A stretch of DNA of 64,000 nt from Tetraselmis striata (lineage: Eukaryota; Chlorophyta; Chlorodendrophyceae; Chlorodendrales; Chlorodendraceae). Both the position numbers and the translations under genes were made by a program. The notes under the pieces are model-generated. The model was not told the DNA's origin. It saw only the letters and a program-made list of their open reading frames with translations, and did no database searches. How positions within the stretch are numbered: the first letter of the stretch is position 1; every line of letters starts with the position of its first letter. This document shows, in pieces, positions 14,742-56,833 of the stretch. The DNA is taken from the NCBI GenBank assembly GCA_006384855.1, contig VCJN01003568.1, positions 124,001 to 188,000 on the forward strand, written 5' to 3'.

Positions 14742-15012
14742 AAAGATGTTGTTGACATTGTAAATGATATGCCACCTCACAATACGAATGATACAATATA
14801 CATGATAATCTAGGCCAAACTGAGGGTCACTCTGGCGAACACATGTTGCCAAAAGGAGAGGAAGAGATAACATCACAACCTCTCCATGATCACCATAATA
14901 ATCCAATTCTAAGTGAGGCACAGCCTCGCCTGAACATATGAACATCTTTCCAACATATCTCAGAGCAAAGCCATGAGAGCTATGACTCTGATGCTAATCA
15001 TAAAAGATATTC

Positions 15013-21800: not shown

Positions 21801-23511
21801 CCGCGCTGCGCCCGTCTCGCCCGCCCGCGCGTGGTCATCCCTCGACAGCCGGCGCAGTGCCTGATCCCTGTCGCGCTTCTCGTTGCCTGCACGGTTAGGA
21901 TGGCGTGCGCCCGCGTTGCCATGGGGCGTGGCCCCGTTGTCGTCCTCATCGGTGTTCGCTTTGTCTGTATGCGGTGTGTCCATGTCTATGTCCAGTGCGG
22001 CCCCGGCAATGGCCAGCATCCGAGGGTACGCGCTGCCCTCCGACTGCGCGTTGCCGTAGGTAAGTGCAAGCCCTTTAACTTCGTCTACGGCAAAGCTGGG
22101 ACGCTCCATGACTGTCCAGTGTGGATGGGCGGGACGGACGGGGCGAGAGACACGAGGGAAAAGATGGTGTTTGCGGGCCCGATGGCGGCGGCGGAACTAG
22201 AAGCGCCGGTCGATTTATTGCGATATCTGATGACAGACCAACGCATCTTGATATTTGTCCGTATGAATCACATCTCTTGTCATGCGTTAGCGTTGTCGAC
22301 GTGGCAGCCCGCGGTGCGCGAACGGTAGATGATGACAAGGATTATCTGATGACGCGATGTCCGTATGATATGCCTCTGAATCACATCTCTTGTCATGCGT
22401 TAGCGTTGTCGACGTGGCAGCCCGCGGTGCGCGAACGGTAGATGATGACAAGGATTATCTGATGACGCGATGTCCGTATGATATGCCTCTAAAGTAATTT
22501 GATTTCATTACTTAAACATGTCGTTACTCGGTCACTGTACTGGTATTGTACCCGTACTCATACTACCCCCGCACCTCGCGCGCGACCCCGCGCCTGATAT
22601 CAGCCATGCCGCGCACCCTCGCAAACCGCTGCTTCTGATCTGAAGACGCGGCGGCATTGGTCCGCCCCCTTGCAGGCTACATGGAACGTTACAACAAGTC
22701 CTTCGCCGTCAAGGCAGTCGCGGACTACGTCAAGGTGCGGGCAACGTGTCACTGTGGCCGGGATCAATCCGTGCGCTCCAGCGGTATGCGTGTGTGCAAT
22801 CTGAGCGAATGCGTCCGTGCTGCATGGAAGGGCCACTGATCCACCGGTCTGGGGCGCGCGACGCCGCAGGTTGCTGAGAAGCACGGGCTGACGCCCTCCG
22901 AGCTGGCGCTTGCGTGGTGCAAGAGCCGCTGGTTCGTGACGTCCACCATCATTGGCGCCACCAGCATGCCGCAGCTCAAGGAGAACATCAACGTGAGCGC
23001 ACGTCCGCCCGCCCGCCCCCTGCCTCCCTTCATCCCAATTCTATTCGCTGCTCCCCCTCCCAGCCTCGCAGCCGTCTCATCCGCACAATCCCACAGCGCA
23101 CCTAATACAAACCAGCAAATGATTATTTGGTGCCAGCATCACGTTTACACTACATGTAACCATGCTTTGGGTCGGCATATAATAATAATTTACCCACACA
23201 CACAGAGATAACGGTTTTATAAGGAAAAATACCAGAATTTAAGAGAATGCACCAGGAATACAACACGGGATATCCGACTCAATGGTTCAAGACAGTTCAT
23301 TGTATTTGTGACCCGTGAACCCAATGAAGTTTCACAGTATGGCGTCACTGATGCGGTGCCTCCGTATTGTCCCCTCACCTTACTCCCTCCATGCCCGCTG
23401 CGATCATCTTCACCCCGTATGCAGGCGTTTGAGATCAACTTGTCACCAGAGTGCATCGAGGATGTGAACGCCGTCTTCAAGCAGTACCGCGACCCATCGA
23501 CGGCACACTAG
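18891..23511 (+). CDS. Aldo/keto reductase, Tas-like, putative plastid form (392 aa)
   Basis: Twelve exons: 18891-19053, 19211-19320, 19524-19628, 19740-19774, 19909-20016, 20361-20478, 20604-20702, 20862-20912, 21032-21152, 22676-22734, 22870-22992, 23425-23511. All phases join and total 1179 nt. It is an NADPH-dependent oxidoreductase with a TIM-barrel fold. The catalytic tetrad is visible: Asp88 (NFLDTAE), Tyr93 (IYPVPP), Lys126 (LATK) and His173 (LLQLHW). 'LGTMTWG' and 'HIGVSNET' are family signatures; 'MYPVPP'-like text points to the Tas subfamily. Residues 1-~45 are Arg/Ala/Ser-rich without acidic residues, like an algal transit peptide. The substrate is unknown. Intron 9 (21153-22675) holds a complete MITE. 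It is convergent with the MORN gene. Confidence 0.95.
21344..22489. mobile_element. Harbinger-like MITE, copy 1 (in reductase intron)
   Basis: The left end GAGGCATATCATACGGACAT continues as a ~45-bp terminal inverted repeat matching the right end. It is flanked by a 3-bp TAA duplication (21341-21343 and 22490-22492). A three-base TWA target site is the hallmark of PIF/Harbinger elements. The second copy is at 47234-48255. This copy has an extra 112-bp tandem duplication at its right end (about 22265-22488), so two successive right TIRs are present. Internal frames are open in several registers but give no transposase motif, so it is non-autonomous. Confidence 0.85.
21443..21540. repeat. 98-bp palindrome inside MITE
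   Basis: A perfect 30-bp-arm hairpin (21463-21526, 4-nt AAAT loop) is extended by outer arms 'ccgctatctgatga' / 'tcatcagatagcgg'. The same structure in copy 2 (about 47333-47430) has a base change in one inner arm. Confidence 0.85.
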
Positions 23512-23953: not shown

Positions 23954-25321
23954 TCACATGAGGATGCATGCAGCAGAGCGGTGTGGACGGTCTGCAGTGG
24001 GATCATCCGTCATGTCGCTCCGCACGACGCGCTCGTCGTTCTCCCAATCACCTCGTATCGTGCGGCCGTCCGCAAAGACGTAGGTGCCGTGCCCGTGCTT
24101 TTTGTCGTCCTTCCAGTTGCCGCTGTACACGGCTCCGTCCGCGTAGCTGTACATGCCGTGGCCGTTCTTCTGGCCACGTGACCACTCCCCTTCGTACGTG
24201 TTGCCGTTGGCGTACGTGCACTTGCCGTGCCCGTGGCGCACGTCGTTCTGCCACCCCCCCTCGTACACGTTGCCATTGGGCAAGGTCTCCTTCACACGGC
24301 CGCCCCCGAGTTCCACCAACCCCACCTCGAGCAGCGGCTGGCTCTGCTTGGCCTCCTCCACATACATGCAGATCACGTCCGCATCGGCGGCACTTGTCAA
24401 GTTGGACATCACGCGCGTGGCGGAATACAGGTCCAGCTGCTCGTGCAGCATTGGCGGCAGAAAGATGAGCGGCCAGCGCTCTACCTGCTCCTTGGTGCCG
24501 AACAGTACATGCGGGCGTCGACCCGCCGCCAGCATCGCCCCCAGCGGCTTGCCCTGCAGCGCCCGCACCTTGCGCTTCCATGCATCGTCGCCAGCCTGCG
24601 GCGTGACCGCTGCAAAGGTGGCCTCAATACGACACCAAGGCCGCTCCCAGTAGGCGTTCCGGTCCCCGATCCAGCCGGGCGCCATGTACTCCTCATAGTA
24701 GTTTGTCCACAGGGCTGGGTATGACCAGCGAGCGTGGCTGGGATCATACACTGGGGTGAGGATGATGTCGCAAGAGCCGATGAGGGAGCGCATGCGATCG
24801 CCCAGCTCCTCCGCCGGATTGCCGTCCTGGTTCAGCGACATCCAGTCCATCCACAGCGCCACCCCGAAACCCGGCGGCAGCGAGTGCTTCAGCTTGCCGC
24901 AGGCGAGCTTGACCAGCTCCAGCTTCGGGCTGCCGCTGTCGGGCAGATCGGGGTGAGCTTGCTGCGGATCACGACTGGGACGGAGCCAGCGGTGCGATAG
25001 GAAGATGAAGAGTGTCTTGCTGGCGTCGAAGGAGCTGTATGGGCGGGACGAGCAGGCCGATGCGCCGCGGCGGGGGAACTGCGGCATGCCGTCCAGCTCC
25101 TCCATCGGCATGAACATCCCCTCGGCCGCTGCTGTCGGTACCGAGAGTGGCGGGGTAGAGGTAGCGGCACCCCTCGCCGCTCCCGAGGACACTTCGTCGA
25201 CATGGCTGTCGTTTGATGGCGCCTGCGCGCGTCCAACGACTTCAGTCCGACAGAGCGCAGCTGCCAGCATATAAGAGCGGCCTGAGGCCCTCGGACCGCA
25301 GTTGAGGTAGCAACATGCCAT
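23954..25321 (-). CDS. SHRW/HET-TIR-like domain protein with C-terminal MORN repeats (455 aa)
   Basis: A single open exon with high GC at third positions. Residues ~100-240 hold a compact domain. 'TLFIFLSHRW' (103-112) gives the strand and SHRW motif, 'LWMDWMSLNQDGNP' (156-169) resembles the D-x-x-x-x-N-Q step of HET domains, and 'CDIILTPVYDP' and 'ERPWCRIEATFA' (226-236) follow. This order is that of the broad TIR/HET-type family that includes signalling and incompatibility proteins. Residues ~350-430 carry three clear MORN units (YEGGWQND..., YEGEWSRG..., YSGNWKDD...) and a fourth partial one; MORN repeats commonly bind membrane lipid or cytoskeleton. The N-terminal 100 residues are low-complexity. 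The start at 25321 is the first ATG; an upstream exon cannot be excluded. Enzymatic activity is unknown. Confidence 0.85.
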   Translation of the reverse strand: MACCYLNCGPRASGRSYMLAAALCRTEVVGRAQAPSNDSHVDEVSSGAARGAATSTPPLSVPTAAAEGMFMPMEELDGMPQFPRRGASACSSRPYSSFDASKTLFIFLSHRWLRPSRDPQQAHPDLPDSGSPKLELVKLACGKLKHSLPPGFGVALWMDWMSLNQDGNPAEELGDRMRSLIGSCDIILTPVYDPSHARWSYPALWTNYYEEYMAPGWIGDRNAYWERPWCRIEATFAAVTPQAGDDAWKRKVRALQGKPLGAMLAAGRRPHVLFGTKEQVERWPLIFLPPMLHEQLDLYSATRVMSNLTSAADADVICMYVEEAKQSQPLLEVGLVELGGGRVKETLPNGNVYEGGWQNDVRHGHGKCTYANGNTYEGEWSRGQKNGHGMYSYADGAVYSGNWKDDKKHGHGTYVFADGRTIRGDWENDERVVRSDMTDDPTADRPHRSAACILM

Positions 25322-25733
25322 CAGGGGTGATCGTCCTTCCTCATATAATCCACGCTATATGCGCACTTACCGCCGTGCTGCTCCCTAAAGCGTTCCCCAT
25401 CTGACTACCGTTGCTTGGTCTTCAGCCTTCTCGGCAGGCGCTCCGGTCGGCGACACGGGTCCAGGCGCTGTGAAACTTCGCGCGCCACTGCAAACTGCTG
25501 TGACCCCGACTGCGCGGGCAGGTGCACCAGAGGACGCGGGTGCTGATTCTGGTGACTATTAACGCTAAACGGCGGGTAGTTGAATCTGGCGGTACATATA
25601 TGGGGACGGTAGTAGCGCGCGACGGCATTCGCCGGGCGCCATCGCGGAGGCACGGCACTACACTACGCTTCAAAATTAGTGGTACTCCAAGCGTAGTTGG
25701 CGAGCATTTTTCGAGTATCATCGCATTACCAAA

Positions 25734-36874: not shown

Positions 36875-37088
36875 ATGGCGCGACGCAAAGAGGAAGCCGA
36901 CGCTGGCGCCCGAGTCGTGCCATCCTTCTGGGCGCCCTTCGCGTGGCTGCCGATGGTGCGGCCGCGCCTCACTGTGCCGCTCGTGCTGCTGGGCGCTTTG
37001 GCGATCGTGGCTGGCGGCATGGCAGGCGTGTTCCTGGGCGCCCAGTCCAGCTGCAAGGCCGCGACCGCTGCTGCGGCGACGCAGGTGG

Positions 37089-37120
<32 letters not shown>

Positions 37121-40100
37121 CCCCCAGGCTGCCTTCCTCGCCCGAGCTTTGTGCCCTGCTGCGGCTTTTCCCTCTCATCATGGGAATAGTTTTGGCGTTT
37201 ACGACTTAAAGCGGCTACTCCGCGCCGCGGCCTCTGCGCCTGGGCGGCAGTTCGGCTTCGTGGCGGACCGTATCCAGGAGGAAGTGAGCACCCGCACCCT
37301 GCCAGTCGTGTCGCTGGGCACCTTCGTGCGGCAGACACCGTACTTCCCTGACTTGGAGGCCAGTTTCGACAGCATCGCCGCCGATTTGCTCGAGCAGGTG
37401 AGTGGTCCCTCGTGCACGCTCTCCATTTCGATGTCGATTGCCTAGCTGGTGGGGCACTGGATGGGCCCTCTGCCTTGCCTCCTGTCGTCCTCCCCTGTCT
37501 ATCTGTTGTTACATGGGCCTACTTGTACGGGTATACGCGTGCTCACTATCCTGCCCGCTCCGCGTGGTGACCGACCGGGCACAGGAGAGCGCGGTGCGCA
37601 ACCTGCAGCTGGCCCCCGGTGGCGTGGTGAGCGCCATCTACCCGGTGGAGGGGCACGAGGGTGCCATCGGGCACGACCTCTTTCTGGACCCCAACCGTCG
37701 GCCCGATTCCTTCAAGGCGATCGACGGCGCGCCAGGTGTGACGTTGAGTAATCCTGTCACGCTCAACCTGGAGGGCGAGAGCGGGCGCGCCGTGTTCGCG
37801 CGGTATCCTGTTTTCATCGACGGCCCGGTCGCCAACCGCAGCGAAGCCTTTGGCAAGCCCGATGCCTACGACTGCGGGGACCCGTGCTACGGCGACCCAG
37901 CCCGCGTGTACTGGGGCATGACCACCGCGCTGGTTGACTTTGACGTGCTGCTGGAGTCCACCGGGCTGACGCACCTGGAGGAGGAGGCGGGCGCCTGCTT
38001 CACCCTGCGCACCGGGGGCGCGCCCAACCCCAACGCCACCGACCTTGTGAGCACCAACTCCACCATCTATGCCTCCGAGTGTGAACCCGCTAATCCAATC
38101 GTCATCCCGGTCATCGTGCCGAACGGCGAGTGGTACGTGCCCGGCCACTCATGCCGCCTTGAGCAGCCCCTGCCGGCGTTGACTTGCATGTGTGGCAAAG
38201 GCATGCTTCCATGCGCATGCTCACGTGTCTGCTCCAAAACCATGCAGGTACCTGGAGATTGGGTTCAGCGGCGCATGCGCGCCCTGGGCCGCCCCGGTGG
38301 CGGCGGTGCTCTGCGCCGCTGTCCTCGCGCTGCTGGCCCTGGTGCTCTTCTCGGTGTACCAAGCCACGCGCAACCGGCTGCTCACCGTGCTGGGCTTTGA
38401 GGCGGAGGTCGGCCACCTGCGCGAGCGGCAGCGGCAGCTGGCGCGCGAGGAGGCGGCCGTCGCGTCCGACAGCGTCCGCCACTTGGTGACCGCGCTCACC
38501 CGATCTGCGCACTTCTCCGCAGAGCTGGAGCCCGCCACCTTCCGTGGCGCCGGCTCCCTGATGAGCCAGTCCAGTTCCTCCTGCTCCTTTGTGAACAAGG
38601 CCTCAGGCCAGGGCGGCCTCATCCATCTGAGCGCCAACCTGAGCATCACGGGAGCCAGCCGGGCTGCATCGATGACCTCCACAGTAGCCGGCACTGTCGG
38701 CTTTCTCGTGATGTCGCAAGTTCACAACCTGGGGAAGCTCTCGACCGCAGATGAGCAGGCCTGCAGGTTTGGCCCGCAGCCACCCGCACATTTGCCTGGC
38801 TCCTCCCCCCCCCCCACCCCCTCTTTCTCCATCGTTCATTTCCCCCACTTAAGCCACCAACGTTATGTATTTCTGCGAGTAAGATTCTCATGCCCCCCCC
38901 CCCCCCCCCCCTCCCCCCCCCCCCTGGCAGCGCCATGCTGGACGCCCTCCGCATGGTGGTGCTGGACCTCGTGGCGCGCTGCCACGGCGAAGCGGTCGCC
39001 ATGGAGGGTGGCTCCAGCGTGGTGCGCTTCAGGAGCGCCGCCGCCGCCACCGAGTTTGCGCTCCAGCTGCGGCAGGACGTGCTGGACACCGCGTGGCCGC
39101 CGGAGGTGCTGGCCCTGCCAGGCAACGCGCCAGTGCCCACAGCCGTCACGTTCCAGCCGGACGTCAAAGGACCGCGGCTCCAAATCCTCATCGACGAGGT
39201 CCTCCCCCCCCCCTTTCCCCGGCCTGCTTCCTTCTTCATGCAGCAAGCACTCGTCAGAGGCTGACGGAGCCGGCAGCAAGGCGGCAATGACTCACCATGT
39301 GCTGCCCCCCCCCCCCCCCCCCCCCTGCAGGAGTCCGGTCCATCGGCAGATTATGTGCGGCAGAGGCTGTGCAGCGCCGTCCTGCCGCGACAAATCTTGA
39401 TGACAAACGGCGCGTGGGTGCACATGGTCAGCACGCTCAAGCTCGCGGTGAGCCCTTCCGCCCATTAGCGCCCTGTAAGTTGGAGGTGTCCCCGGCATCG
39501 GCGAGGTCCAGAGGATGCCGCCCCAGCATCGGTGCGCCTGCTACAAGAGCCTGGAACCAACCCCACGCGATTTGCTGTCGCAGGCGGCGGGTTTCCCGGA
39601 CATTCTGCCGCTGGGCGCCGTCGCGCTCGGGGAGCAGGATGGGATGCACGGTGTGTTTGAGGTCAGCCCGCCGTCGTGGGACCTCCGCATGGCGCAGCTG
39701 GACGCGCAGGGCCCGGGGCCGGCCTTCCTGCAGGTGACGCCCTGTGTGCGCCGCGCTTGCGGGAACCCCGCCCCCCGCCCTCACTTGTAACAGGGGTCGA
39801 GCGGGGAGGTCCCTCGCCTGCGAGCTTGAACGTGGCAGCAATAAATGAAACAACGCTTTCATAAATGAATAAATTACTATTATTATTATATTGTTATTGT
39901 TACTGTGATTGTTGTCGTTATTGTTATCATAATTATTGTCATTATTATTATTTAGAAATGAATAAGTGAAACAACGCTTTGGGCTGCTATATGCATAGTC
40001 CTGCTTGTAGCCCCCCCGCCCCCCCCCCCCCCCCCTGCGCACTCGAAGAAAGATAATCTAGATATTCATCTGGAAATCTGGCAGAATACACTTTCCACAA

Positions 40101-43100
40101 AATTTACACGGATGCCCCGGCTCGGCGGTGCAAAGCAAGTTACTTTCTAGACCCGTCCGGCTTACTGGCACACGCGGGGACACTTCTTGGCCGCTGACTT
40201 GGGGGTGGTGTCGTGTGCTCTGTGCCCGCGGCTGTGCGTGCCAGCTGGCTCGGCCGCTGGAGAACCTGTGGACGATGCCACAGGTGCCGCGCGCGGCCGA
40301 CGGCTCGCCGGGCGACCTCGCGGTGGCTGCGCTGGAGCTGCAGCCGCGCGGCGGCGCGGTGCCGTCGGCGCCGGTGCAGCAGAAGCTCCACGCGGTGGCG
40401 CGGTCCATGGCGGTGCTGTTTGGCGGCTACAACCTCACGCCTGGCGGCGCCTGGGTGGGCGGGGAGCCGGTTCTCCTGGCCTTTGTCAGCGCCGACTGCG
40501 CCCTCTCCTTCGCGGCGTGCTTCCAGAAAGCCCTGCTGCACACGCCCTGGGCCGAGGAGGTGTCGCCAATCCGCCCCCCCCCCCCCCCCCCCCCCCCCGG
40601 GTTCCCTGATAGCTTGGCAGCCGCCCCTCCAATCCTGCGGCTCAAATCAGCCGTCTGGTGGTTTGGGATATCATCATTCGGCTCGTGCACACCCCACGCA
40701 GTTGCCGGGTGATGGTCTGCTCAATGCCGCCGTGCATGCGCATAAATGGCATCAAGCGCTGCTTGCCACCCTACAGGTCAAGCAACAACAGCTAGAGGCT
40801 ATCTCTCACCGAAACCCGCCGCGCTCTGGGTTTGCGCCACATTATATATTGGTTTTGACCACATCCATCCAGAAAGCTCCGACCTGATTTCGCGAAACCA
40901 CTCATTACTTTTCTAACCTACAAGTCCCATCACATGGTGCGGTACTATAGGGTGTTGTCAGACAGTGCCCCCATCCCAGCCTCTGCCTCACTTGGCCAGA
41001 CTGCATTGCACCATTGGCTGAGTCGCCTCCTGCCCCCCACCCCTCCCCTCCTTTTCCTCCGGCCCTGCAGGAGCTGGCCACCTGGGGCGCCCGGGACGTG
41101 GGCCTCCTAGGCAAGCTCCGCTTTGCCGGCCCGCGCGTGCGGTGCGCCGTCGATCTGCAGCCTGCAAACACTGCCGCCGTCGCTACCGCGCATGATTGCC
41201 CCGCCGCGGCGCTGCTTGAGGCCGCACACGGGGGGCAGGTGAGGCGGACGCACGCGCTCGCCGAATCTCTGCCCTAAATGAGCAATATTGAAGCGTTATT
41301 TGAAGGGGCTAGTATTTCAAGCATTGATACATGACCAGCGCGCAGGTGGCAGAAATTGTATTTGCCACCCTTCTATCGTTTTTCCATTTCTATTGTATTC
41401 CGCTATTCTGCATTCTTTTATTCTTGTTAGTGGCGTTTTGCTGAAGCTATTCCACCGTATTGTTGAGACGCGGTACTAAGCAGTATGTGTGTGATCATTG
41501 ATGTCTATAGCACTGCTTGATTAAAACTTGTACAAGCACGGCGTATACTGCAGTCCTTACCAGCATACATGCGTTGCATACGCGTTAGTTTGTTGTGCGT
41601 TTGTCCGCATTCCTGTAATGCTTTCTAATTTAAAACAATCTAGGCAGACTTCTCCTGAGAAATGGGCAATACACAATCTAACAATGTCCTTAGTGATGTC
41701 ATAAATTGATTCGCAATACGACTAAACTGGTCCTGTCAGTTATCTTTAAAGAAAAGACAAATTATCAACGCATTTTATATTCTAATTGCCAAATTTGCAT
41801 TATAATAGACTGCTTAATGTTGACAGTTACTGTTCATAATCCCGATCAATCAAATGTTGAACACTTAATTGGCCACGTGTTACGCGCATCCGTGGCACGC
41901 TTTGGAGCGCCTCATCGCGGTCGATTCTCTTTGCGGCGGCTCACTCCGCTCCCCGCCCGCGCAGGTGCTGATGAGCGAAGCCGTGGCGTCCAGGGCCTCC
42001 GCCGTGTTCAAGGAGAATGTCGTGCAGGTGCTAGACCTGGGGTGCCACCGCATGGCCGCGGGCAGCCAGCCTACGCGCCTAAAGGAGCTGCAAGTGAGGG
42101 ATGTGCCGCGCAGCTTCCCACCGCCCCGCACCCTGGAGGTGAGCCCTCCCGCCCTGCCCTGCCCTGCCCTGCCCTGACCAACCAGTCGCTGGTGGTAGCA
42201 CTGGACGTCCTGCTACATGCTCCGGAGGCTTGAGCAGAGGGCACATGCTTGCCTGACAACGGCAGAAAGGGGGAGGGCGGGGCAGGGAGGGGGGGGGGGG
42301 CAATATCGGAATAATGAAACAGCGCATGAACTGTGTCCATTATTAGGCTGTGAAGCTGCCCCCCCCCCCCCCCCCCTGATGGTTGAACAAGCCCCATGTA
42401 AATGACAAATGTGAATCAAGGTCCCTAAAACTCCGGAAAGGGCCCTCGCATGGAGAAAAGGGGGAGGATATCTAACTTTACGCGTGGATGGAGATAGGCC
42501 ATTGTCTTTCATCTACAAAATCGGCAATGATGTATACCCGTGGATCTCTCTCGCCCTACACATATTTATCCATATGTGCATATACATGTACTTGTATATA
42601 TATGTATATACACTCACTTGTTTGTTGGGCAAGATATAACATGCGAGCTGGCGGTGAACAAAACAGACTTACAAGCTGCAACTCTGAGAACACGCAGCGA
42701 CGCTGCCCTTCGCTCAATGAGACTCCTTGTTTTTTGACAACCAGCTTATTAGCACCCTGTGAAAGCAGAAGTAGACAAGCTTCGATTTTTTGATAGGATA
42801 TTCTGTCTAGATAACGCTGTGGAGCTGACGCGCGGCGGCGGCTGTATTGCAGGAGGTGTCTCCGGGCTTCCAAGGCTCCCCCGACCCCGGGCAGCCCGTG
42901 ACCTTCGTGTTTTGCCAGGCGGTGTGCCAGGCCGGCACCGCTGTCTCGAGCACCCAATCATGGTCGGCCGCGCTGGAGAGCTGGAAGGCGCTGGCGGCCT
43001 CCATGGCGCGCCCCCTCGGCGGCTACGAGACCCATGCCCGCGGCGCCAACCTCGGGCTCGCATTCCCCTCCCTCGAGGTCACAGCCCCGTCGGCCTCTCT

Positions 43101-46100
43101 CCCCACTCTGCGCCCATTTGCGCGTCTGCGCCGTGTCTTACATCAGGCTCGCGGGTCCCACACACCAAGGCGCCGGAATCGGGACATCGAGTTCGCCGCG
43201 CAACTCGCAGCGCCGCGCAATGGGGAATGCTGCGGGAAGTGCAGTGTGGTGTCGGCGCCCTGAATGGCGGCGACAATTCCCGCAGGGGATTGAGTGCGTC
43301 GCCGCGAGTCCCGTATTTTCGGCGGCTTTATGGGGCATACGCCATTAAACACCCCTACTACTATTTAGCGGATACTTCGCATACACGTAAATGTATAATC
43401 AGTTCTGATGGGCGACATTCATCGTTTTGATTGCCCCCTCACACCCCCACCCCCCGTTACATTATTACAGGTTAGGCCTCATGTACTCTATTAGACTATG
43501 GAGAGCTGGGGGAGGGGGTGCGTCTCTCTGCGTCTGTGCATCTGGAAAACATCAAAATGCGTCGCGAGCAAGTAATCCGCCTTGGATGTGATTCGTCACG
43601 CTCGCGGGTTGCAATCATCAGTGGCAGCACTCCTGCTACGTTCCGATACATCTCCAGATGACCGCAGCTTTTCCTTCTTTCCGAGAGGATGGACAACACT
43701 GACAGGTAGCGAACCCATGGCCCAGGGATGGGTCCGCTCTCGCGCGTCCTCACGCTGCTCTGGCTGCCCATGCGCAGGCCGGCACCGCGTTCGCCGTCAG
43801 CATGCAGAAGGCGCTGCTGGACCTGGCGCTGCCGCCCACGCTCACGCAGCACGAGGCCTTCAAGCCCAAGCTCGGCAGCCAGGGGCAGGTGGGATCTCCG
43901 CCCTCCCGCACTGCTGCCACGCCCGCTCCCGGCCCCTCGGTGCTGCCATGCTTGCGTCCGTGACCTTGAACGGCCATCTTGTTGTCACGGGCTGCGCTGT
44001 GAGGCGCCGCTGAGCTTTGTCGCGCCCCAGACTTGATGCAATCACGTGACCTACGGGCCCAATGGAATGTCACGGTCGCCACTTGCTGTTCCATATGTCA
44101 ATGTTTGTGACCCGCCCTCTTCCTCCAAAGAGAAAGTTATCTGAAAACCCATGAGAAGACGCCACGAAAGTCGACATTTCAACTGGATGGCGCAAAACCA
44201 TGGATCGCTTTCTGTTCCCTGCGCACAGCCTGATTGAGGGTTCCGGCGTCCCCACACGCCAGGTCGTCTTCTGCGGGCTGCTTGTCAAGATGGGCATCTC
44301 GTGCGGCATCCCCGCCATGCGCCAACCGCACCGCCAGACTGGCGTCGCAACCTACCAGGGCGTCGCGGTGCAGCAAGGGGCGCGCATCATGCTGGCAGCC
44401 AGCCCGGGGCAGGTGCGCTGCCGCCCGGCCCGGCGGGCTGGAATCTGGGAGGCACTTGCGCGGCTGCTCAACCCCCCTCCCCCCCCGCCTCGCCCTCGAC
44501 CGCCTTTTACCCCTGCGTCGCGCCGCCGGCATGTCACCAAAACACGCCCCCGCAAGGTCCTCGCTAGGCCGCACATCGACACGGATGCCAGCGCGTTTAC
44601 AGGAACACCGCGCATGAGAACCTGCCATGCCACCTAGAGGTCAAATGTTGATAAAACCTAGCGGCAGTGTAGAGACGGTTCGTATAGGTGGCATGCAAGC
44701 TCAGTTTGAGCCTTGCCGCGCCGTGACCCGCAGCTCCCTGCGCTCTCATTATAGTGCGCGCCCCATCGGAGCTTTGGTATGGGACCCCTGGCTCTGCCAA
44801 GCTCAGGTGGGGCGCGCCAATGGCGCCCTAGAACCGACCGTTAGCGCCTCTTCTGAATCCAATGCGGCTCTTCTTCTGAATCCAAGTGCAGCTCCGGCCA
44901 CATGCCCAATCCAGGTCGAAGGATGCGCTTTTAGTCATCTCACGTTCTCCCCCTCCCCACTCAACGTGACTCGTTGTCCTGGCCGCCGAATGGCCGCGCG
45001 GGAGTGCAGATGAATCGCCATTGAGACCTCCTTGATGGCAGGGGGGGAGGGGTTTCCCTTGCACCTGTACTTATGCTAGGCGGGTCTACTCAAGACTGTC
45101 GTCGAGGTCTTTTCTTAGGTTCACTCAATTGTAGATGGGGTCTCTAGCACCTGTGCCACCTACACACCCCATAGCATCACCGCGGAGGCTGCAACAAGAT
45201 GGAGGAATCGAGCAAATTTCGAATAGAAAATTGGCCATTGCGCATCGAGTGCCGGCGCTAGGGGCACGCCGTGATTCTGCAGCCTTGTTCGAGAAGGAGG
45301 AAGAATCGAGCGGACCATCACTCCTTGTTTCTTGACAAATATTAATATGGTCATGTCATCCTTATCCAGATATATTCGCAGGACGCAGGATTATTGAAAT
45401 ACCGCGATTTGTTTTTTTAAGTGGAAACTTGTACAAATAAACCAGTATATCAAGATACAAGTTCGGCGAATACAAATAGAAAAGAATAGAATATGTCTTG
45501 ATAATTCGCCTTTTCTTGAAAGAGAGTTGGCAGATACATCTTAGTCGTATTGCGAATCGATTTCGGATATTACTAAGGGCATTTTTTGACTGTGTGCTGC
45601 CCATATATTACGAATATACACGTATTATATTGTTTTAGATGGACAGCAATACAGGAATGCGTACCGATGTACACGATATGAAAACGTCAACGATTACTAC
45701 GCGTTGTTATCATGAGGCACGCAAGTTCTACCGCGATGCATTGATTGCGGGTGGTGCCGGCGCGCGTATGATATATCGTCCTGGTGGTACCAATACTCGA
45801 GCAATCAGCTTCATTGGAGTGCTAGAAGATTGGCAACTTAACATGGCAAGGCACCGCCGTTTGAAATTAGTTGCCACCTGCGCGCTGGTACTGTTATAAA
45901 AGTAGTGTAAAACTGTGACATTACTCGAGCTGCGCGATCCCATGTTTACTGTTGAGTAGTACTGGCAGCAAATGCCCGCCGATGTCAGGATTCAGTACCC
46001 ATGCTGGATTCAATCAGATATCTACCAGTGCTTACAGGATGTAATGACTAGCGACAGGCCACGTACGGGATGTCATGTGCACCGCACAAACTACAGTGAT

Positions 46101-49100
46101 CCGTGATTTGACATTTGATACCGCTGAATCAAGCTCTGTCTCTTGACAAACTGGCGTTACCCAGCATCAATGAAGGGCCCGCCCCCGGCCAATCCGCATA
46201 GGGTCCACGAATTAAAGCGCGTAGGGTGGGGCCTCTGTAGGCCACGTGGCTATGTTGCAGTATAGCAGTACTAAACATCCGCATATATGGTATTTGTACA
46301 CGTTTAGTGCTTGATACGTAGGGTTTATTATGCGCGTATACGGACGCCAGAGTGGCCCGTAGTCTACGCGGTGACATGCTCTACCACAGTTGCGGGCATG
46401 TCCGCTCCGCAGTTGCTTATTGCGCCACTCTGCGCATGGCCTCCGCCGCAGGTGCTGCTGGAGGGCAGCGCCGCCGTGAGCCACCTGGGCCTGGAGCCGA
46501 AGGTGTTCCAGGCGACCATGGGGGACGCCAGGCAGGAGGCGACGGTGATCAGCACTCCTGCGCTGGCGGACATGGGCGTGCCAGCGGTGCACCTCCGCCC
46601 CCTCGGCCTCTTCAAGCTCCAGGTGCGCCCCCATTCTGTACTGTCTAATAGAGTACACCATGATGAAGGACCCTCCGTCTCACGTAGTGACCTGTGCCGG
46701 GGAGGGGGCAGCCATCGGACTATGAATTTAGTGCATCGGACCTTGTCATACCTTAATATATCTTTGATGTACATGTATTTGTGAATTAAAGGCATGTAGT
46801 GGCTCGACTCCCTGAAATACCAGCGTGGCGGCGTTGACATGCGCGGCGTGGGAGCGCCGATGCTGGCCGCAACTTGCGCGTGCAGTCGCGCGCCTATCCC
46901 GGAAACGAGTTGTTTGTAGCGACTTGCGTATCGCAGACACTAGATCGCGCCTATAGGTTTGGCAGATGGGGCTTAAATCAGCCAACCAGCCGGAGAATTA
47001 TCAACATAATCCTGCGACGCATTTATTTTCTTGGTTACAGGGAGAGCGCCCAGAGAATGCACGGAAAGTACTCCTGCGAAAGTAATCCTGCGACGCATCG
47101 TAAAATGATCACCGACTTCTGCCCACTTCCGAATTCCGACTTAGGGTCATTCTATAATCCTTACAGGGCACGATAGCAGCGTAATCGCCATCATCATCGC
47201 TGGTAAGTGAACATAGTACGTGAAATCTATTTAGAGGCATTTCATACGGACATCGCGTCATCAGATAATCCTGTCATCGGATAAATACTCGCACCGGAGC
47301 GTGCCACGTCGTAACTGATGACATGCCCCGCGCCGCTATCTGATGACAGACCCGCGTGTATACTGTACACGGGGGCATTTCCAAATGGAAATGCCCCCGT
47401 GTACAGTGCACACGCGTCATCAGATAGCGGCCTCGGCCAGCCCATTTTCAAAACATTATCGCCCAGTCTACCTACCTGCCGACGCCATGGCAGGCTCTGC
47501 CGAGCAATCTCCGCAACGGACACCCAGGCGGGGCGAACCCACATGGGAGACCCCCCCTCCCCGCACTATGCTGGGTCCTGTTGCCCCTGGGTTCACGGTT
47601 TCGCCGCGGGAGCTACGCGAGAAGGCCCGTGCACTGGCGGGGCGCAGCGGCTGCAGCCCTGGCGCCTCGCCCGCCGCCACCGCGCTGCGCCCGTCTCGCT
47701 CGCCCGCGCGTGGTCATCCCTCGACAGCCGGCGCAGTGCCTGATCCCTGTCGCGCTTCTCGTTGCCTGCAAGGTTAGGATGGCGTGCACCCGCGTAGCCA
47801 TGGGGCGTGGCCCCGTTGTCGTCCTCATCGGTGTACGCTTTGTCTGTATGCGGTGTGTCCATGTCTATGTCCAGTGCGGCCCCGGCAACGGCCAGCATCC
47901 GAGGGAACGCGCTGCCCTCCGACTGCGCGTTGCCGTAGGTAAGTGCAAGCCCTCCAACTTCGTCTACGGCAAAGCTGGGACGCTCCATGACTGTCCAGTG
48001 TGGATGGGCGGGAGGGACGGGGCGAGAGGCACGAGGGAAAAGATGGTGTTTGCGGGCCCGATGGCGGCGGCGGAACTAGAAGCGCCGGCCGATTTCTTGC
48101 GATATCTGATGACAGACCAACGAATCTTGCTGTTTGTCCGTATGAATCACATCTCTTGTCATGCGTTAGCGTTGTCGACGTGGCAGCCCGCGGTGCGCGA
48201 ACGGTAGATGATGACAAGGATTATCTGATGACGCGATGTCCGTATGATATGCCTCTTACTTCCTCCGATGACCCAACAATCGTTCTTCCCTGTACACACG
48301 GGGACAGTCACCGCGTGTGTGCGCAGGCCTGGCTGGGCATCCGCCGAGATCTTGTCCCACCTCCACGCCACGACACTGCCGTGCCCTGCCGCCACCGCAC
48401 GGGGCACGACCCACCTGCCCCCCAGCCCAGCTTCGTAGTACCAAGGAAATCGCGGCAATATATACATGCGCACGGCCGGGAATTGTAACGCCATGCTTCA
48501 TGATGACAAAACGTTTAACGTCAGCAACTACGGTATTCAGTATTTTACGCGGTGCTAGGGGCTACCAGTTGAATAATACGACTGTCGCTCGAACGGAAAT
48601 TGGGACATGCTGTTTTATGCAGTGTATTGTCGAGAGGTGCTCGCTGCATACAGTCCAAATATAAGCATTATTTCCGATGTGTGATTCTTTTTCCGAAAGC
48701 TCAATTATCCCCCTTAAACGGTGAATGTGGGCCGTAGTTCGTTATTCGGAATCTTTTACCCTTATAAAGTACGGGTACAACGAATATATACAACCGATGC
48801 TCTCTCGCATTACCACCATCGCGCACGCCGTGACGCGCCTCGCCGTCCGCAGTCGTGCCGCCCGCCCCTTTTCCAGCCTGCCTGACTCCTGACGTGATTT
48901 CACTTGCGACCGCCAGTTGCAGGCGGGGGAGTCCAGCAAGTCGCTGGTGGACGCGGTGCTGCCGGAGCTGGCGGAGCGCGCGTTCAGCATGCCGCCCGGG
49001 CGAGTGGGTGAGTCCACCCTCCCCCCTTCCCGCCGCCATGGGTGCGCACGTCACATGTTGACACGACAGGCTAGGGTTGCCCGCCACATGTACGGGGCGT

Positions 49101-52100
49101 GTGTACTCAAAACACAACTGCTCTCCGAGAGGTGCTTTTACGACATCTCGGACATAAAGATAAGGACACGACTGCTGTCCGAGAGTTACCGTGCGCGCTT
49201 GTCAACGAGTTAAATTGCGAAACTGTATCACACTTACAGACACTTACAGATCACACTTCTGAGAGACCATACAGTCGCCCGCTCCGCGCCGAACTGCAGT
49301 GGCAGGTCTGGCACGTCGATATTTTTGAAGGCGCCTTGGCTGCGATCGAACTAGGCGAAAATCCGACTGCCCAAAATAGTGCCAAAAATAACGGGTAGTT
49401 GTTCCGTCCCTTATTATTCGTACGTATATTCATGGATTGCGAATTCTGACTTATTTCTCATCAAGCTTCCCTTGAAATTGGGAAATGCTGACTCACCCAG
49501 AACCCTAAAAGCCCTCAAGAAACCCCGTCTTGTGCAAGCACGCTGATGGATGGCTGCTCCGCGGTCGGTCTGCTCAGGGGTTGCCACCGCTGGCGAGGGC
49601 AGCCCACACACCTCCCTGGGGGCGCTGCCGCGCATGCGCCCCTCCGCGCGCGGCAGCGCCAGCAGCGCCAGCCTGCAGTCCATGCTGGTGGACATCATGG
49701 GTGAGCACGCGGCGGCGAAGGTGGGCGGCAGCGAGGAGAAGGTCGCCATCCGCGGCCTGCTGGGTAAGGGCATGCAGGGCACCGTGTACCTCGGCCGCTG
49801 GAAGGGCGTGGACGTCGCGTACAAGGTGGACCCCCCCCCCCCCACCCACCCCCCCCGGCCAACCACCCACCCACCCACTCACACCCTGCTTGGGCATTAC
49901 CTCACGATATGAGGTGACATAATATGATTATGTGCTAGATAAGATACCAAAATCACGCAGTGTTGGCAATCTGTCTGTGTCTGAGTCTGACCCCTTGCGA
50001 GGAGAGGAAAGCTGTACGTATCTGGAAATATATGAGAGTGTACCACGAACGTAGCACGGAATCTCCAACTCGGTGGCGCAAAACAATCCAGCATTGCTTG
50101 TTGTGCCCCGCAAGCGGCCCAGTTGAATGTTGCCGGTGTAAGATGCTACGGACGGTGCTGAGCCCCCCGAGGCACCTCCCAAAGCACGATTCCCGGCATC
50201 AGTGGAATCACAGCCCCTCTCCTTGTATCCGTATTTCGCCGTAGGCCATGCCAGCGCCGCCGACCCCTGCCCCAGTGCAGCCGCGCTCGCCCAGGGACCT
50301 CTTGTGCATTTCTATATTCACATCTGTATAATAATATGTATATATTTATATGCACATAGTTATGTTTCATTCTAAATATATTTACACGTACTAGCTAGTA
50401 TATGTAATAAGGCATATGTATGTGCCTGTGCCCGCAATCATATCAGATTGGATGCAGCCACTCCCCTGCCCAGCTTAGCATTCCATTGAGTTTGCCAGTC
50501 ACAGAAAAAGTGCCCACGCAGTCGATGTATTCAGACCGTTGCGAACAGGGTCGTGCGCTTCATGCGAGCGGTGTGCTTCTGGGACAAAACTAGAGGTCTT
50601 CCCAGTAAGGATTCGCCATGACTTAGTCATGCACGAGCCCCCGAGCACGTACCGCTGAAAGTACTTGTAATCTGCTCCTACGCCACTGCATATAGCCCAA
50701 GAATATCTTTTAAGCGCGGATAGCCTGCGTCCCTCTGGGTGCGGATAAATAAAGATTGAAAAATAACGAATCCATGGTGAATCCTTATTGTGGAAGAACT
50801 CATTCGCGTAGACCTACCCCTAGCCACTCTTTGGGTTTGCGGTATCTTGTCCGTTTTGACCACACCCCCCCTTTTATCCCCGTGAAGAGGAGAAAACTGT
50901 GTTTATGTGGAAATATATCACAATATACCGCAAATAGTGCCACGCGGATCTTCAGACTGGGGCTCCTTATTGGTAGGGGTCCTTATTGATAGCGGCGGCG
51001 ACAACCAGGCTGGTGGGCTGTTTTGCACCATCACTTGGGAGGAACCCGCCTGCATTGTTCGTGGCGTATTCTGATAGATTTCGTAATTTTTACTGCTCTG
51101 CGCGGGAGGTCAAAGCCGGCAATATATAGCGAAACCTAACTCTAAACCCTCAGGGCGGTATGGGGTGCCAATGTTGGCCTGGTATTGTGCAGGCAGGTGG
51201 TTTCGGAGCATGGTTTCGGAGCATGCTCCGCATGGCATCCAGCCACAGGGCGCGCCGCTCTCGCCGGTCGCCCGCGTGGCCGGGCCCGCCCGCTGACTTG
51301 GGGCGCGTCGCCGGCAGGTGGTGGCGCTGCCACCGGTGATGAGCGGGCAGAACAAGAAGGAGACGCGCGCGCTGCTGGAGGTGGCCATCTCCGCCACGCT
51401 GGCGCACCCCAATCTGGTGCAGACGTACAGCTATGAGATCGTGCGACAGCAGGCAGTGGAGGCCAGCGGGCCCGCGCAGCGCGGCTCGGTCGACGGCCTT
51501 GCGGGCCTGGCGAGCGCGCCGCTCCTCGCCGAGGCGATCCTGGAGGAGGCGGAGCGCGACACGCAGCTGCTGGATGACGGCGAGGAGGGCGGGGGCGGCG
51601 GGGAGGCGCAGGAGGCGCGCCTCATCCAGGTCGGCGCCCGCTGCCTCCCGGAAACTCGCCAGTCTATTAGGATGCAAGTGCGGCAAATAGAAACACAGAT
51701 AGAAACCGCCTTGCTCGTTTGCCTTTTTCTTGAAAGAAACCTGACAGGTATAATTAAGTCGTATGGGTATTGCGAATCGATTTCGGCAAGCACTAAGTAC
51801 ATTTTTAATTTTACTGCCCATTCTCGGGTGACGTTAACGTTCATTGTTTGGAGAAAGATAGCAATACAGGAATGCGGACTGACGCTCTAAGATAAGATTA
51901 CGTCGACATCTTTTGCATATCTTGTTGTTATAGCCCTTCCTGGTACCGCTATTTTACGTAAATTACCGGGTAAAATTAATGGGTATACGACGCGTATATA
52001 CTGGTATGGACTGCAGCATACGGTGTGCTTGTACAAGTACTAATCAAGCAGTGCTGCGGACATCAATGATGACACACATAATGCTTAGTACCGCTTCTCA

Positions 52101-53823
52101 ACAATCTACTATCATGGAATGACTTTGACAACAAGCTAATAATAAGAACAAAGGAGGCAGAATAGCGAAATACAACACAAACGGGAAAAAATTCTACAAG
52201 GTTGGCAAATACAACACGGCGGCCAGGCTTTTGTTTAAGATTTCTGCCACCTACGCGCTAGTCAATTAAAGGCGGCCACAATTGAATGGAGTGTTGTTTG
52301 AGGGTCTTGTTTAAACCCTGTTGTAGTCGTGCTGGTGGAACCCATATTTGGTTGGTTTCATGCCCCGAAACCAAATTCCGGAGAAATCTCATCACAACAA
52401 GTGTTTTGGTTTATTTGAGTCTGGTGTTGCCCCCCCCCCCCCCCCCCCCCTCCCACACACACACACACCTTGTTAACATCAACGCTCCCCGGCATGTCCG
52501 CCGCCGCCCCCGCAGGAGCTGTGCGACAAGAAGACGCTGCGCCACAACCTGGACCGCGGCAAGTTGAAGGCGCCGGGGGAGGCGCTGCCGGACACGGAGC
52601 TCATGCTGGCGCTGGCGCTGGACATCGCGTGCGGGCTGGCGCACCTGCACAGCCGCAACATCGTGCACGGCGACCTCAAGGCGCTCAACGTGCTGCTGAC
52701 GTCCTGCGCGCCGCGCCTGCACTGCGCCGCCGCGTCCCACCTGCCCAACGTCACCGCCAAGGTGACCGACTTCGGGCTGAGGTGGGCGCCCCCCCCCCCG
52801 CCACCCACCGCCACCACCGCCACCACCCGCTATCAGGAAGAGCCCGCTTCTTCTCTCATCGCCGCGCGAAAGGGGGGGGGGGGGGGGGGGCTAGCACCCC
52901 ATTTCTGAGAGCAAAAGCGGGTTCTCAGAGCAAGTCGGGTTGACACTTGCCGTTCTTTCATGTTGTTTTGCAGATATACTACAGTTATATACAACGAATA
53001 ACATCAAATATGAAATAAAAAACGGGGCATTGGCCCCGCCAGGTCGGCACCAGATGGCCCTTGTCGCCGTGCGCACAGTACACTGCCTAGCTTTAAACCC
53101 CCTCCCCCCCCCCCTTGCGCACTGCTGCGCGCCCTCTCCAGCGCCAAGCTGAGCAACGAGCAGACGCACGTGAGCAACGTCAACAGCGGCACCATGACGC
53201 ACATGGCGCCCGAGATCCTCCTGGCGGGGCAGCTCTCCAAGGCGGCGGACGTCTACGCGTTCGGCATCCTGCTGTTTGAGATGTTCACCGGGGAGCGCCC
53301 CTTTGAGGGGCTCAGCGTGCAGCAGGTGGCGCACTCCGTGGGCACGCTGGGCCGGCGGCCGGTGTTCCCGCCGGCGGTGCCGCGCGGCGTGGTGGAGCTC
53401 GCGTGCGCCTGCTGGGGCCCGGCCGAACAGCGGCCGACGTTTGACCGCGTGATGGTCGCGCTGGAGGGGCTCATCCGCGACCGCAAGCAGCACCGGGGGC
53501 TGCGGCGCAGCCAGACCAACGCCGCGCTGCTCGGGCCTCCGCGCCCCGCGGAGCCCACTTCCCCGTGCAGCCCCCAGCCGCCGCGGGACGCCGGCGGCGG
53601 CGCCGGCGCCGGCGGCGGCGCCGGCGAGGTCGACTTTGCGGCGCTGCAGCGCGCCCCGAACGGCGTCGGCGGCGAGTCCCCCTTGGTGCGGCGGCTGACG
53701 GCCGGCGCCAGGGTGGCGAGGAGGCCGCGCGCCAATCGCACGATGCCGTCGATGACGGAGGAGGGCGGCAAGTGCAGCCAGGGGGGGTCGCCCGGTCCGC
53801 CTGCCACCCTTCCGGGGCAGTGA
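36875..53823 (+). CDS. CHASE receptor with tandem cyclase-like regions and C-terminal TKL kinase (1655 aa)
   Basis: Nineteen exons: 36875-37084, 37128-37397, 37585-38132, 38248-38766, 38931-39198, 39331-39447, 39584-39733, 40245-40559, 41071-41238, 41965-42093, 42853-43077, 43778-43888, 44239-44412, 46452-46622, 48923-49007, 49578-49825, 51318-51629, 52516-52781, 53142-53823. All phases join (4968 nt). TM1 is at ~32-56. A CHASE-type ligand domain (~70-340) has 'LQLAPGGVVSAIYPVEGHE' and 'AIGHDL'. TM2 is at ~354-380. Three class III cyclase-like regions follow: ~430-694 ('FALQLRQDVLDTAWP'), ~695-898 ('FGGYNL', 'FQKALLHTPW') and ~899-1125 ('LLVKMGISCGIP', 'RQTGVATYQG', 'GARI'). The expected metal-binding Asp residues are not seen. 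The kinase (~1190-1520) has 'GKGMQGTVYLG', Lys1236 (VAYK), HGDLKALN and DFGLS, so it looks active. The tail is Gly/Pro-rich. The start of exon 13 is the least certain junction. It probably senses a ligand at the surface and signals by Ser/Thr phosphorylation. Confidence 0.85.
41338..41830 (+). repeat. AT-rich dispersed element, copy A (intron 9)
   Basis: The left end 'gcgcgcaggtggcagaaatt' and inner 'gggcaatacacaatctaacaatg' have counterparts, in inverted orientation, in copies B (51690-52262) and C (45365-45900). It includes a short frame starting Met-Gly-Asn-Thr-Gln-Ser-Asn. Confidence 0.7.
45365..45900 (-). repeat. AT-rich dispersed element, copy C (intron 13)
   Basis: Shares with copy B 'tcgattcgcaatac', the 'tttcaagaaaa' segment and 'gcaatacaggaatgcg', and ends 'gccacctgcgcgctggt'. 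A minus-strand frame reads 'MGSTQSKNALSNIRNRFAI', close to the corresponding frames in A and B. Confidence 0.65.
46133..46345 (+). repeat. Dispersed repeat D, copy 1 (intron 13)
   Basis: 'tcttgacaaactggcgttacccagcatc' through 'catagggtccacgaattaaag' and on to 'ggacgccag' is matched at about 54037-54280 with moderate divergence. Confidence 0.75.
47234..48255. mobile_element. Harbinger-like MITE, copy 2 (in receptor-kinase intron 14)
   Basis: Same family and orientation as 21344-22489. It has GAGGCAT...ATGCCTC terminal inverted repeats and a 3-bp TTA duplication (47231-47233 and 48256-48258). It is 1022 bp and lacks the right-end tandem duplication of copy 1, so it probably shows the ancestral structure. 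No transposase. Confidence 0.85.
51690..52262 (-). repeat. AT-rich dispersed element, copy B (intron 17)
   Basis: Inverted relative to copy A: 'gtgcttgtacaagtactaatcaagcagtgctg' and 'gccacctacgcgctagt' mirror copy A's 41340-41560. It includes a minus-strand frame starting Met-Gly-Ser-Lys-Ile-Lys-Asn near 51821. Confidence 0.7.
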
Positions 53824-54036: not shown

Positions 54037-54280
54037 CCCCGTCTTGACAAGCTGTAATTACCCAGCATCGGGAAGGGCCGGCCCTGGCCAACGCGCATAG
54101 GGTCCACGAATTAAAGTGCGTACGGCGGGGCCTCTGCTCTAGGGCCACTTGGTTATGTTGCTGTACGGCGGTACCCGTAACCGTACGTATCTGTAATCCT
54201 GAATGGCACAAGTACTAACACGTGTCTTGTTTCATACATGGGGTTTGATACGCGCGGACAAGGACGCCAGCTTGTGCGCG
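54037..54280 (+). repeat. Dispersed repeat D, copy 2
   Basis: Counterpart of 46133-46345, in the same orientation, just downstream of the receptor-kinase gene. Confidence 0.75.
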
Positions 54281-54993: not shown

Positions 54994-56833
54994 CTAGTCG
55001 CCGCAGTCAAGAACGCGAATGAGGCGGTCGGCCCATATATCTGCCGCGGAACGGATATAGCGCGTGGACAGGGTAATCAATACCGCGCGTGTCCATGAGG
55101 TACCATGTTTTGCGTAGCTCGACCATGAGGCGTGGAGAGCGAGAGGTGAGGTTGGTGAGGACGCCGACAACCGCTTGGTTATCATCGTGCAAGCAGATGC
55201 AACGGTTGCGGAGCATGGAGAGGAAGGACTCAATAGCCAAACGGACGGCTTTGAGCTCTTTTAGGGTAATCTGTGCGCAGAGCGGTAATCTTCGTACCAA
55301 AAATCCCGAGCCTCATGTTGTTCGTTCAGAACGGCGCCCCAACCGTACGAGGAATTGTCAACGTGCAAGTAACCGGTTTCGACAGGGCGGTTAATGTGGC
55401 GGCCGTTGTGTTGGGAGGGCACTCCCACCTAGCATTGCACGTCACGTTCGAGCTGGCGGGTGAGCTTGACTCGGCCGGACCAAGAGTCGAACGTTTTGAG
55501 CACATCATGCAGCTCACGGAGGTAAAACGGGCAGGGGCGATGACCTAGTAGACAAACTGGCATTGCCCGCGAGGGCGGCCAACTCGCGAGCGGAAAGCCA
55601 TCGACGGTTGCGTTTCGCTCGCTAGATCAGGCGTTGTGCCGTGCGGGCAAGAACGGAGAGTTTCTTAGCGGGCGCACAAAGGGTAGGCGGCCCCGACGTG
55701 TCAATTTCTAACCCTAGGTGCACGAGCTTCCGGGTGCCTGGGCTCCCGGACGCCATTGCTTGCGTTGCGCAATGTGCTAAACCCCGACAGGTGGCCTTCG
55801 ATGTAGCCGCGTTGCCAGATGGCCTCTGCCTGAGTCCGAGCTAGAAACATGAAATCGTCCATCTAGGGCAACATGCGTAGGCCAAATCGGCGCCGGGGGA
55901 TTGGTATGCCGTATGCTTCAGTCGGGTTACGACGCAATGCCCTAATGAGGAAGTTGGTAAGCTGGCACAAGTAATAAGGGGACAAAGACCAGCCCATGGG
56001 AAAGCCAGCCAGGCAGTCGGTACCGAGTCCCACGGCAATCGACAATGAAACGTCCATGTCCTCCTGGGCGACGCCAACCGTGTAAAACCCATCATGCCGG
56101 TCCATCTGCAACATGTAATCCCCGAGGCGCGCCAGACTGCGCAAATGCGAAAGCGTCTCGAACGAAAGATCCCGCGTCTCGCTATAGCGGTTCAGGGGCC
56201 GAAGGTCAATGACGAGGCTCCATTGTTTGTTCCAGGCTTTGTAGGATCCAAGAACAGCCGAAACACCGACTTTGCGCAATAGTCTCGCTTCCATATGCCC
56301 CAACGGCCAAGAAGCGAGCCAATTCAGCGTCCATGAACTTCAACTGAGCCGGAGTAGCGTCCTTCATTGACACCCCCCGGTGAAAACAAGGGTGGGGCAA
56401 GCCCGTCCAACAACGGAACGCGTACATGTCTAGAGATCCAGTTGAGAACACGACGATTAGCACCAACACCGGCTTGCCAGTTGCCAAAACTACGATGGAC
56501 GCGATGTCTCGTAAAAGGGGAGTCGGGGTTGCATGAATCGGTGCGATGGATGTCGCGAAGGGGGCGACCAGAGCGCCATGTCACTATGCTGACCCTCTTC
56601 GCACCGGCGTCGGGGTCCACGGTGCGGGGGATAGTAGAAGCGCCGCGGCGTGGGAGTAGCCATGTGCCATTGGGCGCCGGCTGGGCCACTGGCAGTGTAG
56701 TGTCAATTTGTATTTGAATTTGTACTAGACGACGGGCAAGCGTTGGCATGAGCCCCAATCGGAGCGCATCTCGGCACCTATTGCGAGCAGGGGCCAGGGG
56801 ATCGAGCCATGCCCATACGGGAAAGGCAACCAT
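54994..56833 (-). pseudogene. DIRS-like retrotransposon relic (reverse transcriptase - RNase H)
   Basis: Minus-strand fragments in shifting frames, in the right order. About 56487-56300 has 'VSMKDATPAQLKFMDAELARF'. 56303-55863 carries RT core motifs 'WSLVIDLRPLNRYSE', 'DYMLQMDRHDGFYTV' and 'FPMGWSLSPYYLCQLT'. A 'MDDFMFLARTQAEA' catalytic region follows a stop. Then 55300-55007 has the RNase H-like 'TLKELKAVRLAIES' and 'HDDNQAVVGVLTNL', and 'YIRSAADIWADRLIR' follows a shift. The 'GWSLSPYYLCQLT' and 'DNQAVVGVLTNLTSRSP' wording is characteristic of DIRS/PAT/Ngaro elements. I did not see their tyrosine recombinase. It has multiple stops and frameshifts. Confidence 0.75.

Follow-up and report, generated by a model that had tools for sequence, protein, structure and literature searches.

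The window analysed here, 64,000 nucleotides of Tetraselmis striata contig VCJN01003568.1, carries a gene with an unusual order of parts. Its predicted product runs from a first transmembrane stretch through a CHASE sensor and a second transmembrane stretch into three successive class III cyclase-like domains, and ends in a protein kinase (Table 1). We believe that this receptor kinase is probably a cyclase receptor whose output was switched to a kinase, with the cyclase stack, its catalytic sites lost, serving as a transmission block. The first-pass annotation had read the order as CHASE, three cyclase-like regions and then kinase, the reverse of the animal arrangement, and both the gene model and the domains bear this out; its interpretation also largely stands. 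The modules themselves are known. What is new is how they are combined, with the cyclase site lost and a kinase presumably gained.

Table 1. Features of the receptor-kinase gene (positions in the window; residues of the final model)
Feature	Positions	Strand	Basis or remark
Predicted coding region, receptor kinase	36875..53823	+	19 exons, 1621 aa
Exons 1-7	36875-37084, 37251-37397, 37585-38132, 38248-38766, 38931-39198, 39331-39447, 39584-39733	+	
Exons 8-13	40245-40559, 41071-41238, 41965-42138, 42853-43077, 43778-43888, 44263-44412	+	
Exons 14-19	46452-46622, 48923-49007, 49578-49825, 51318-51629, 52516-52781, 53142-53823	+	
First transmembrane stretch, residues 27-57, exon 1	36953..37045	+	hydropathy
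CHASE sensor region, exons 2-3	37251..38132	+	PF03924
Second transmembrane stretch, residues 309-343, exon 4	38267..38371	+	hydropathy; predicted long helix next
Cyclase-like domain 1, residues about 448-650, end of exon 4 to exon 7	38684..39733	+	both metal Asp replaced (Gln, Gly)
Cyclase-like domain 2, residues 654-872, exons 8-10	40245..42138	+	
Cyclase-like domain 3, residues 873-1091, exons 11-14	42853..46622	+	Asn and purine Asp replaced (Gln, Thr); Arg kept
Linker from stack to kinase, exon 15 and first part of exon 16	48923..49729	+	P0135 matches exon 15 at E 6e-4
Protein kinase domain, exons 16-19, insert in exon 17	49730..53490	+	PF07714, motifs, tblastn of P0132-P0136
Dispersed repeat, intron between exons 14 and 15, outside the protein	47230..48256	+	96% identical to 21340-22377

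The gene model is internally consistent. All 18 introns are GT-AG, the phases fit at every one of them, and no stop interrupts the 1621 codons between the ATG at 36875 and the TGA ending at 53823, so the earlier claim of phase-consistent exons in one gene holds. The start of exon 2 was first placed at 37128 and was replaced by 37251 after alignment with the relative P0001, which dropped 41 residues. The new acceptor was checked by its splice motif, and residue numbers in the Pfam scan of the first model are 41 above those of the final model in the CHASE region. The start codon is the first ATG in its open frame; the N-terminus is uncertain because the P0001 match on exon 1 begins 87 bases upstream of it.

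Searching the window by tblastn with P0001, P0132, P0133, P0134, P0135 and P0136 gives collinear matches on 17 of the 19 exons. P0001 covers exons 1-5 and 7-11, P0132 exons 12, 13 and 16-19, P0135 exons 13 and 15-18, and P0136 exons 13 and 16-19. Of the 16 matched exons with a predicted acceptor, 13 have a match that begins no more than 9 bases from it; the fit is looser at exons 4, 5 and 16. Exons 6 and 14 have no separate tblastn match at E 1e-3; they fall within longer protein alignments of the relatives.

The introns and the surrounding DNA contain repeats. The copy listed in Table 1 has its partner of about 1 kb lying 26 kb upstream, and shorter inverted pieces are common to both. Shorter related repeats lie in introns at 41356-41812, 51659-52214 and 45442-45691, and just downstream of the gene at 54042-54174. 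Long runs of C occur in the introns, for example at 37090-37119, 38893-38925 and 39305-39325, the latter two just before a 3' splice site, and six-frame translation reads such runs as polyproline. Elsewhere in the window, frames at 15004-17408 on the forward strand, in an A-rich stretch, look retrotransposon-like: they match the integrase zinc-binding model PF17921 and, weakly and below its cut-off, the integrase core model PF00665. On the reverse strand, frames at 55000-56340 resemble by eye a reverse transcriptase with RNase H, and the frame at 55866-56339 has no Pfam match. A 466-residue frame with MORN repeats (PF02493, 2e-23) lies at 23957-25354, also on the reverse strand.

The relatives support a single protein. 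P0001 matches residues 60-1130 of the first model at E 3.5e-227 in a search of 5.8 billion sequences, so chance is no explanation. It is a metagenomic protein of 1001 residues, 47% identical to the receptor kinase, that runs from CHASE through cyclase-like domains 1 and 2 to the start of domain 3, where it apparently reads into an intron at the same border as in our gene. P0136 (928 residues, from a contig of 2949 bases) carries domains 2 and 3 followed by the kinase. Judged by their unbroken frames, both of these probably come from transcripts. For the part from domain 3 to the kinase the closest named matches are P0132 from Tetraselmis striata, P0134 from T. chuii and P0135, labelled as the acoel Convolutriloba macropyga; P0132 is 53% identical over 99% of that query, and both it and P0135 join domain 3 to a kinase. 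Every domain junction is thereby covered by overlapping predicted proteins from different sources. The first-pass annotation had proposed looking for the same domain order in other algae, and it was recovered piecewise, in the partial relatives P0001, P0132, P0135 and P0136; among the relatives retrieved no outside protein spans CHASE to kinase. P0135 (LOC142356349) bears an animal label yet belongs to the algal receptor-kinase lineage. Acoels of the Convolutriloba type carry Tetraselmis-like symbionts, so P0135 may be the gene of the algal symbiont.

No second copy of the receptor kinase was found by tblastn with eight proteins in 29 loci (L001-L029) of its own genome assembly, which comprises 224 Mb in 2903 contigs. 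These loci are eight from an own-genome search, 20 regions around the 68 matches to PF00211 of that search, and one flank of the window. Other cyclases in them were matched at about 25-39% identity, and two domains of P0002, a triple-cyclase protein, had no match at E 1e-5 in 137 reading frames of the first eight of these loci. None of the 68 PF00211 matches is on the window's contig, and a close paralogue is not expected in those regions since the three domains of the receptor kinase do not match PF00211.

The sensor scores 27.1 bits on PF03924 against a cut-off of 25, a weak match, and P0001 falls under the same cut-off at 19.6. With hydrophobic stretches on either side of the CHASE region, the two-pass CHASE module of the earlier reading is sustained, and the protein would be a two-pass membrane receptor. 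Further hydropathy peaks at residues 728-747 and 985-1003 lie inside cyclase-like domains and were not accepted as membrane helices. The CHASE region is 67% identical to that of P0001 and 32% identical to that of the Chlamydomonas CHASE-phosphodiesterase P0003. It has Asn-X-Ser/Thr sites at residues 203, 269 and 277, two of them at corresponding places in P0001, and there are four more elsewhere in the protein. The P0001 structure model has pLDDT under 50 over the CHASE part and shows a helix at 358-436 with pLDDT of 49-81 up to residue 420 and under 45 beyond it.

The middle region was described from the start as cyclase-like, with a comparison to class III folds suggested as the check. Fold comparison, made on relatives, and profile comparison agree on the class III nucleotidyl cyclase fold. 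The closest solved structures are those of the trypanosome receptor adenylate cyclases GRESAG4 (1fx2, 1fx4), reached by fold for domain 2 and by profile for domains 2 and 3, the profile of domain 3 matching 1fx4 at E 2.4e-8. Simpler searches return little: at E 10 Pfam has no match to domain 2 or domain 3, and domain 1 matches none of its cyclase models, a Pfam scan of four members of the domain 3 alignment gave one stray match only, phmmer of domain 2 against solved structures found no match, and a two-sequence profile of domain 1 found no credible one. The profile of a mixed alignment (A3) mainly matched leucine-rich repeat (LRR) proteins, and its match to GRESAG4 at E 3e-26 is due to the sister-family sequences it includes. 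Only kinases appear among the 50 matches listed for the fold search with the P0136 model, so its domains 2 and 3 were judged by model confidence, secondary structure and profile instead.

That sister family is a set of green-algal receptors that includes P0002, P0018 from Nannochloris, P0029 from Coccomyxa, P0020 from Trebouxia and P0046 from Tetraselmis striata itself, among others. Its members line up three class III domains in the order seen here. They differ in bearing LRR or fibronectin-type labels, whereas the receptor kinase has no LRR ectodomain and has CHASE in that place. The LRR label is not universal among them: PF08263 is found in 22 of the 40 best sister-family matches and in 9 of the 19 proteins aligned. 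None of those 40 best matches carries a Pfam label for a kinase or for CHASE. When nine domains of the receptor-kinase lineage were scored against P0002, leaving aside the 83-residue start of domain 3 in P0001, all nine did best against their positional counterpart, with small margins for domain 2 (21.4 against 17.2 bits in the receptor kinase, 24.5 against 21.3 in P0001). Judged by sequence, the triple stack is common, domain for domain, to this green-algal receptor family, and even in its degenerate state it is well conserved between the receptor kinase and P0001.

The catalytic residues are where the two groups part. In class III cyclases two Asp bind metal, a further Asp contacts the purine, and an Asn and an Arg complete the site. 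Across the 19 triple-cyclase proteins aligned from the sister family, the first metal Asp of domain 1 is present in all 18 sequences that extend to it and the second in all 19, and none has Asn at the Asn column. Domain 3 is the complement: purine Asp, Asn and Arg each occur in all 19, and the metal columns lack Asp. In domain 2, 0 of 12 sequences with a letter at the first metal column have Asp there and 1 of 13 at the second, and none has Asn, in an alignment that is uncertain. From this division of residues we predict that the sister family has a single active site common to domains 1 and 3; domain 2 appears to have neither set. The receptor kinase has lost this predicted composite site. 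Its domain 1 has Gln and Gly for the metal Asp (Arg and Gly in P0001), with an Arg at the matching Arg column in a gapped stretch. Domain 2 has Glu and Ala at the metal columns, where its alignment is likewise uncertain. Domain 3 has Thr for the purine Asp and Gln for the Asn, keeps the Arg, and has Gln and Gly at the metal columns. The relatives vary in domain 3. In P0132 the purine Asp has become Asn and the Asn has become Leu, and the Arg is kept; P0135 has Met, Gln and His for purine Asp, Asn and Arg; in P0136 the purine Asp is kept, Ser and Ala stand in place of Asn and Arg, and the second metal column holds an Asp. With neither the two metal Asp nor the complete Asn-Arg pair of a competent cyclase, the receptor kinase has presumably lost cyclase activity. 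Its first-pass description as a stack of former cyclases fits both the folds and the loss of the metal Asp and the catalytic Asn.

The kinase, in comparison, looks intact. PF07714 matches at E 9.9e-41 (140 bits), and the motifs GKGMQG, VAYK, HGDLK, DFGLS and MAPEI supply the glycine loop, Lys, HxD, DFG and APE, which confirms the four motifs that had been named as kept. HGDLK is a Ser/Thr-type loop. The sequence and fold matches are divided on the earlier assignment to the TKL type. The kinases MLK, CTR1, MAP3K12, MLT and B-RAF are among the sequence matches in the PDB, but EGFR and a Src-Abl ancestor take the first two places, and the fold lists for P0136 are headed by Src, Abl and Eph-type kinases. 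The kinase may be of the TKL type. The HRD arginine is Gly in the receptor kinase and in P0132-P0136, which may mean regulation of the non-RD kind.

Several known systems resemble parts of this receptor. Animal receptor guanylyl cyclases place a dead kinase-like domain first and a live cyclase after it. They share with the receptor kinase a sensor, a membrane helix, and a dead and a live catalytic domain in one chain, but here the site-less cyclase-like domains come first and the kinase that follows keeps its motifs, so there is no kinase homology domain ahead of an active cyclase. P0119 of Pandoravirus massiliensis has a sensor-like domain, a cyclase (1197-1365) and then a kinase (1506-1760); it differs in that its single cyclase matches Pfam and its sensor match is PBP-like, and in having EGF-like matches as well as a second kinase stretch. 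The Chlamydomonas protein P0003 is the best named match to the CHASE region, but its output is a cyclic nucleotide phosphodiesterase. GRESAG4, nearest in structure for domains 2 and 3, is a single catalytically competent cyclase and has no kinase. In a domain scan the bacterial-type proteins P0068, P0070 and P0107 put the kinase before the cyclase and P0239 puts CHASE2 before a kinase, and P0245 had no cyclase match at E 1e-5. Rice CHARK is described as a cytokinin-binding CHASE receptor that carries a predicted Ser/Thr kinase, and as a retrogene and a product of trans-splicing (PMC7814049). It combines, like our protein, a CHASE sensor and a predicted Ser/Thr kinase in one receptor; the abstract on it mentions no cyclase domains (PMC7814049), and the likeness is one of domain content. 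A CHASE domain by itself does not make a cytokinin receptor, according to one account (PMC10338860), and another mentions degenerate cyclases in two algal rhodopsin proteins (PMC7693036). The first-pass annotation knew of no description of this architecture. None of the matches listed from the open-access literature describes a single chain that unites CHASE, three cyclase folds and a kinase, but rice CHARK and P0119 are partial precedents.

We suggest that the outer CHASE domain of this two-pass receptor would sense a ligand, and that the resulting change would pass through the second transmembrane stretch and the helix after it into the three cyclase folds in a row. These would make no cyclic nucleotide and would act as a dimerising or rearranging transmission block. 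Pairing of the stack, within or between chains, could then set the distance or contact of the kinase domains and so the activity of the C-terminal kinase, which would be the output and signal onward. This flow through the stack is one we infer. As to origin, the three-cyclase module of the green-algal receptor family would have had its sensor changed, its cyclase site lost and a kinase added, a change from cyclase receptor to kinase receptor. The full account is more tentative, though a serious contender: a three-cyclase receptor whose only active site was divided between domains 1 and 3 may have given up that site and acquired a kinase, retaining the whole stack as a transmission block of a mechanical or nucleotide-sensing kind, an independent mirror image of the animal receptor guanylyl cyclases.

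Other explanations deserve to be weighed against this. The stack might bind a nucleotide without converting it, so that the kinase is gated both by an outer CHASE ligand and by an inner nucleotide. The retention of cyclase folds in the relatives, the conservation of the degenerate stack against P0001 and the Arg kept in domain 3 of the receptor kinase and P0132 would all suit such sensing; however, the purine Asp of domain 3 survives in P0136 and is gone from the receptor kinase, P0132 and P0135, and we consider the idea unlikely. Less likely again is that the receptor kinase pairs with another cyclase, such as a triple cyclase of the sister family, to which it would lend a domain, and so still controls the production of cyclic nucleotides as well as phosphorylation. 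Class III sites form between two domains. The sister family seems to split its site in just this way, between domains 1 and 3, and pairing is conceivable because some site residues remain in the stacks of the receptor kinase, P0132 and P0136, among them the domain 3 Arg of the receptor kinase. But the Asn and purine Asp of its domain 3 and both metals of its domain 1 are lost, and the 29 own-genome loci examined contain no strong triple-cyclase match.

The remaining two explanations are both unlikely. Two or three neighbouring genes could have been joined by mistake, since repeats sit in the two introns that separate exons 13, 14 and 15, which are about 2.0 and 2.3 kb long, and no full-length outside protein was found. 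Yet P0136 and P0001 each carry their several domains in one predicted protein, P0135 and P0132 join domain 3 to the kinase, and the phases fit throughout; we regard a misjoined model as very improbable. We give still less credence to a decaying pseudogene. The cyclase catalytic residues are gone, as they would be in decay, but the reading frame is open over its whole length, the 47% identity to P0001 across CHASE and stack suggests constraint, and the kinase motifs are in place.

If our preferred reading, a cyclase receptor with its output switched to a kinase, is true, cyclase folds can persist after their chemistry is gone and serve a kinase receptor as its relay, in parallel to the kinase folds of the animal receptor cyclases. 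The sister family then offers a natural before-and-after pair for the receptor kinase, and its predicted site, built from domains 1 and 3 and leaving domain 2 silent, can be tested in its own right.
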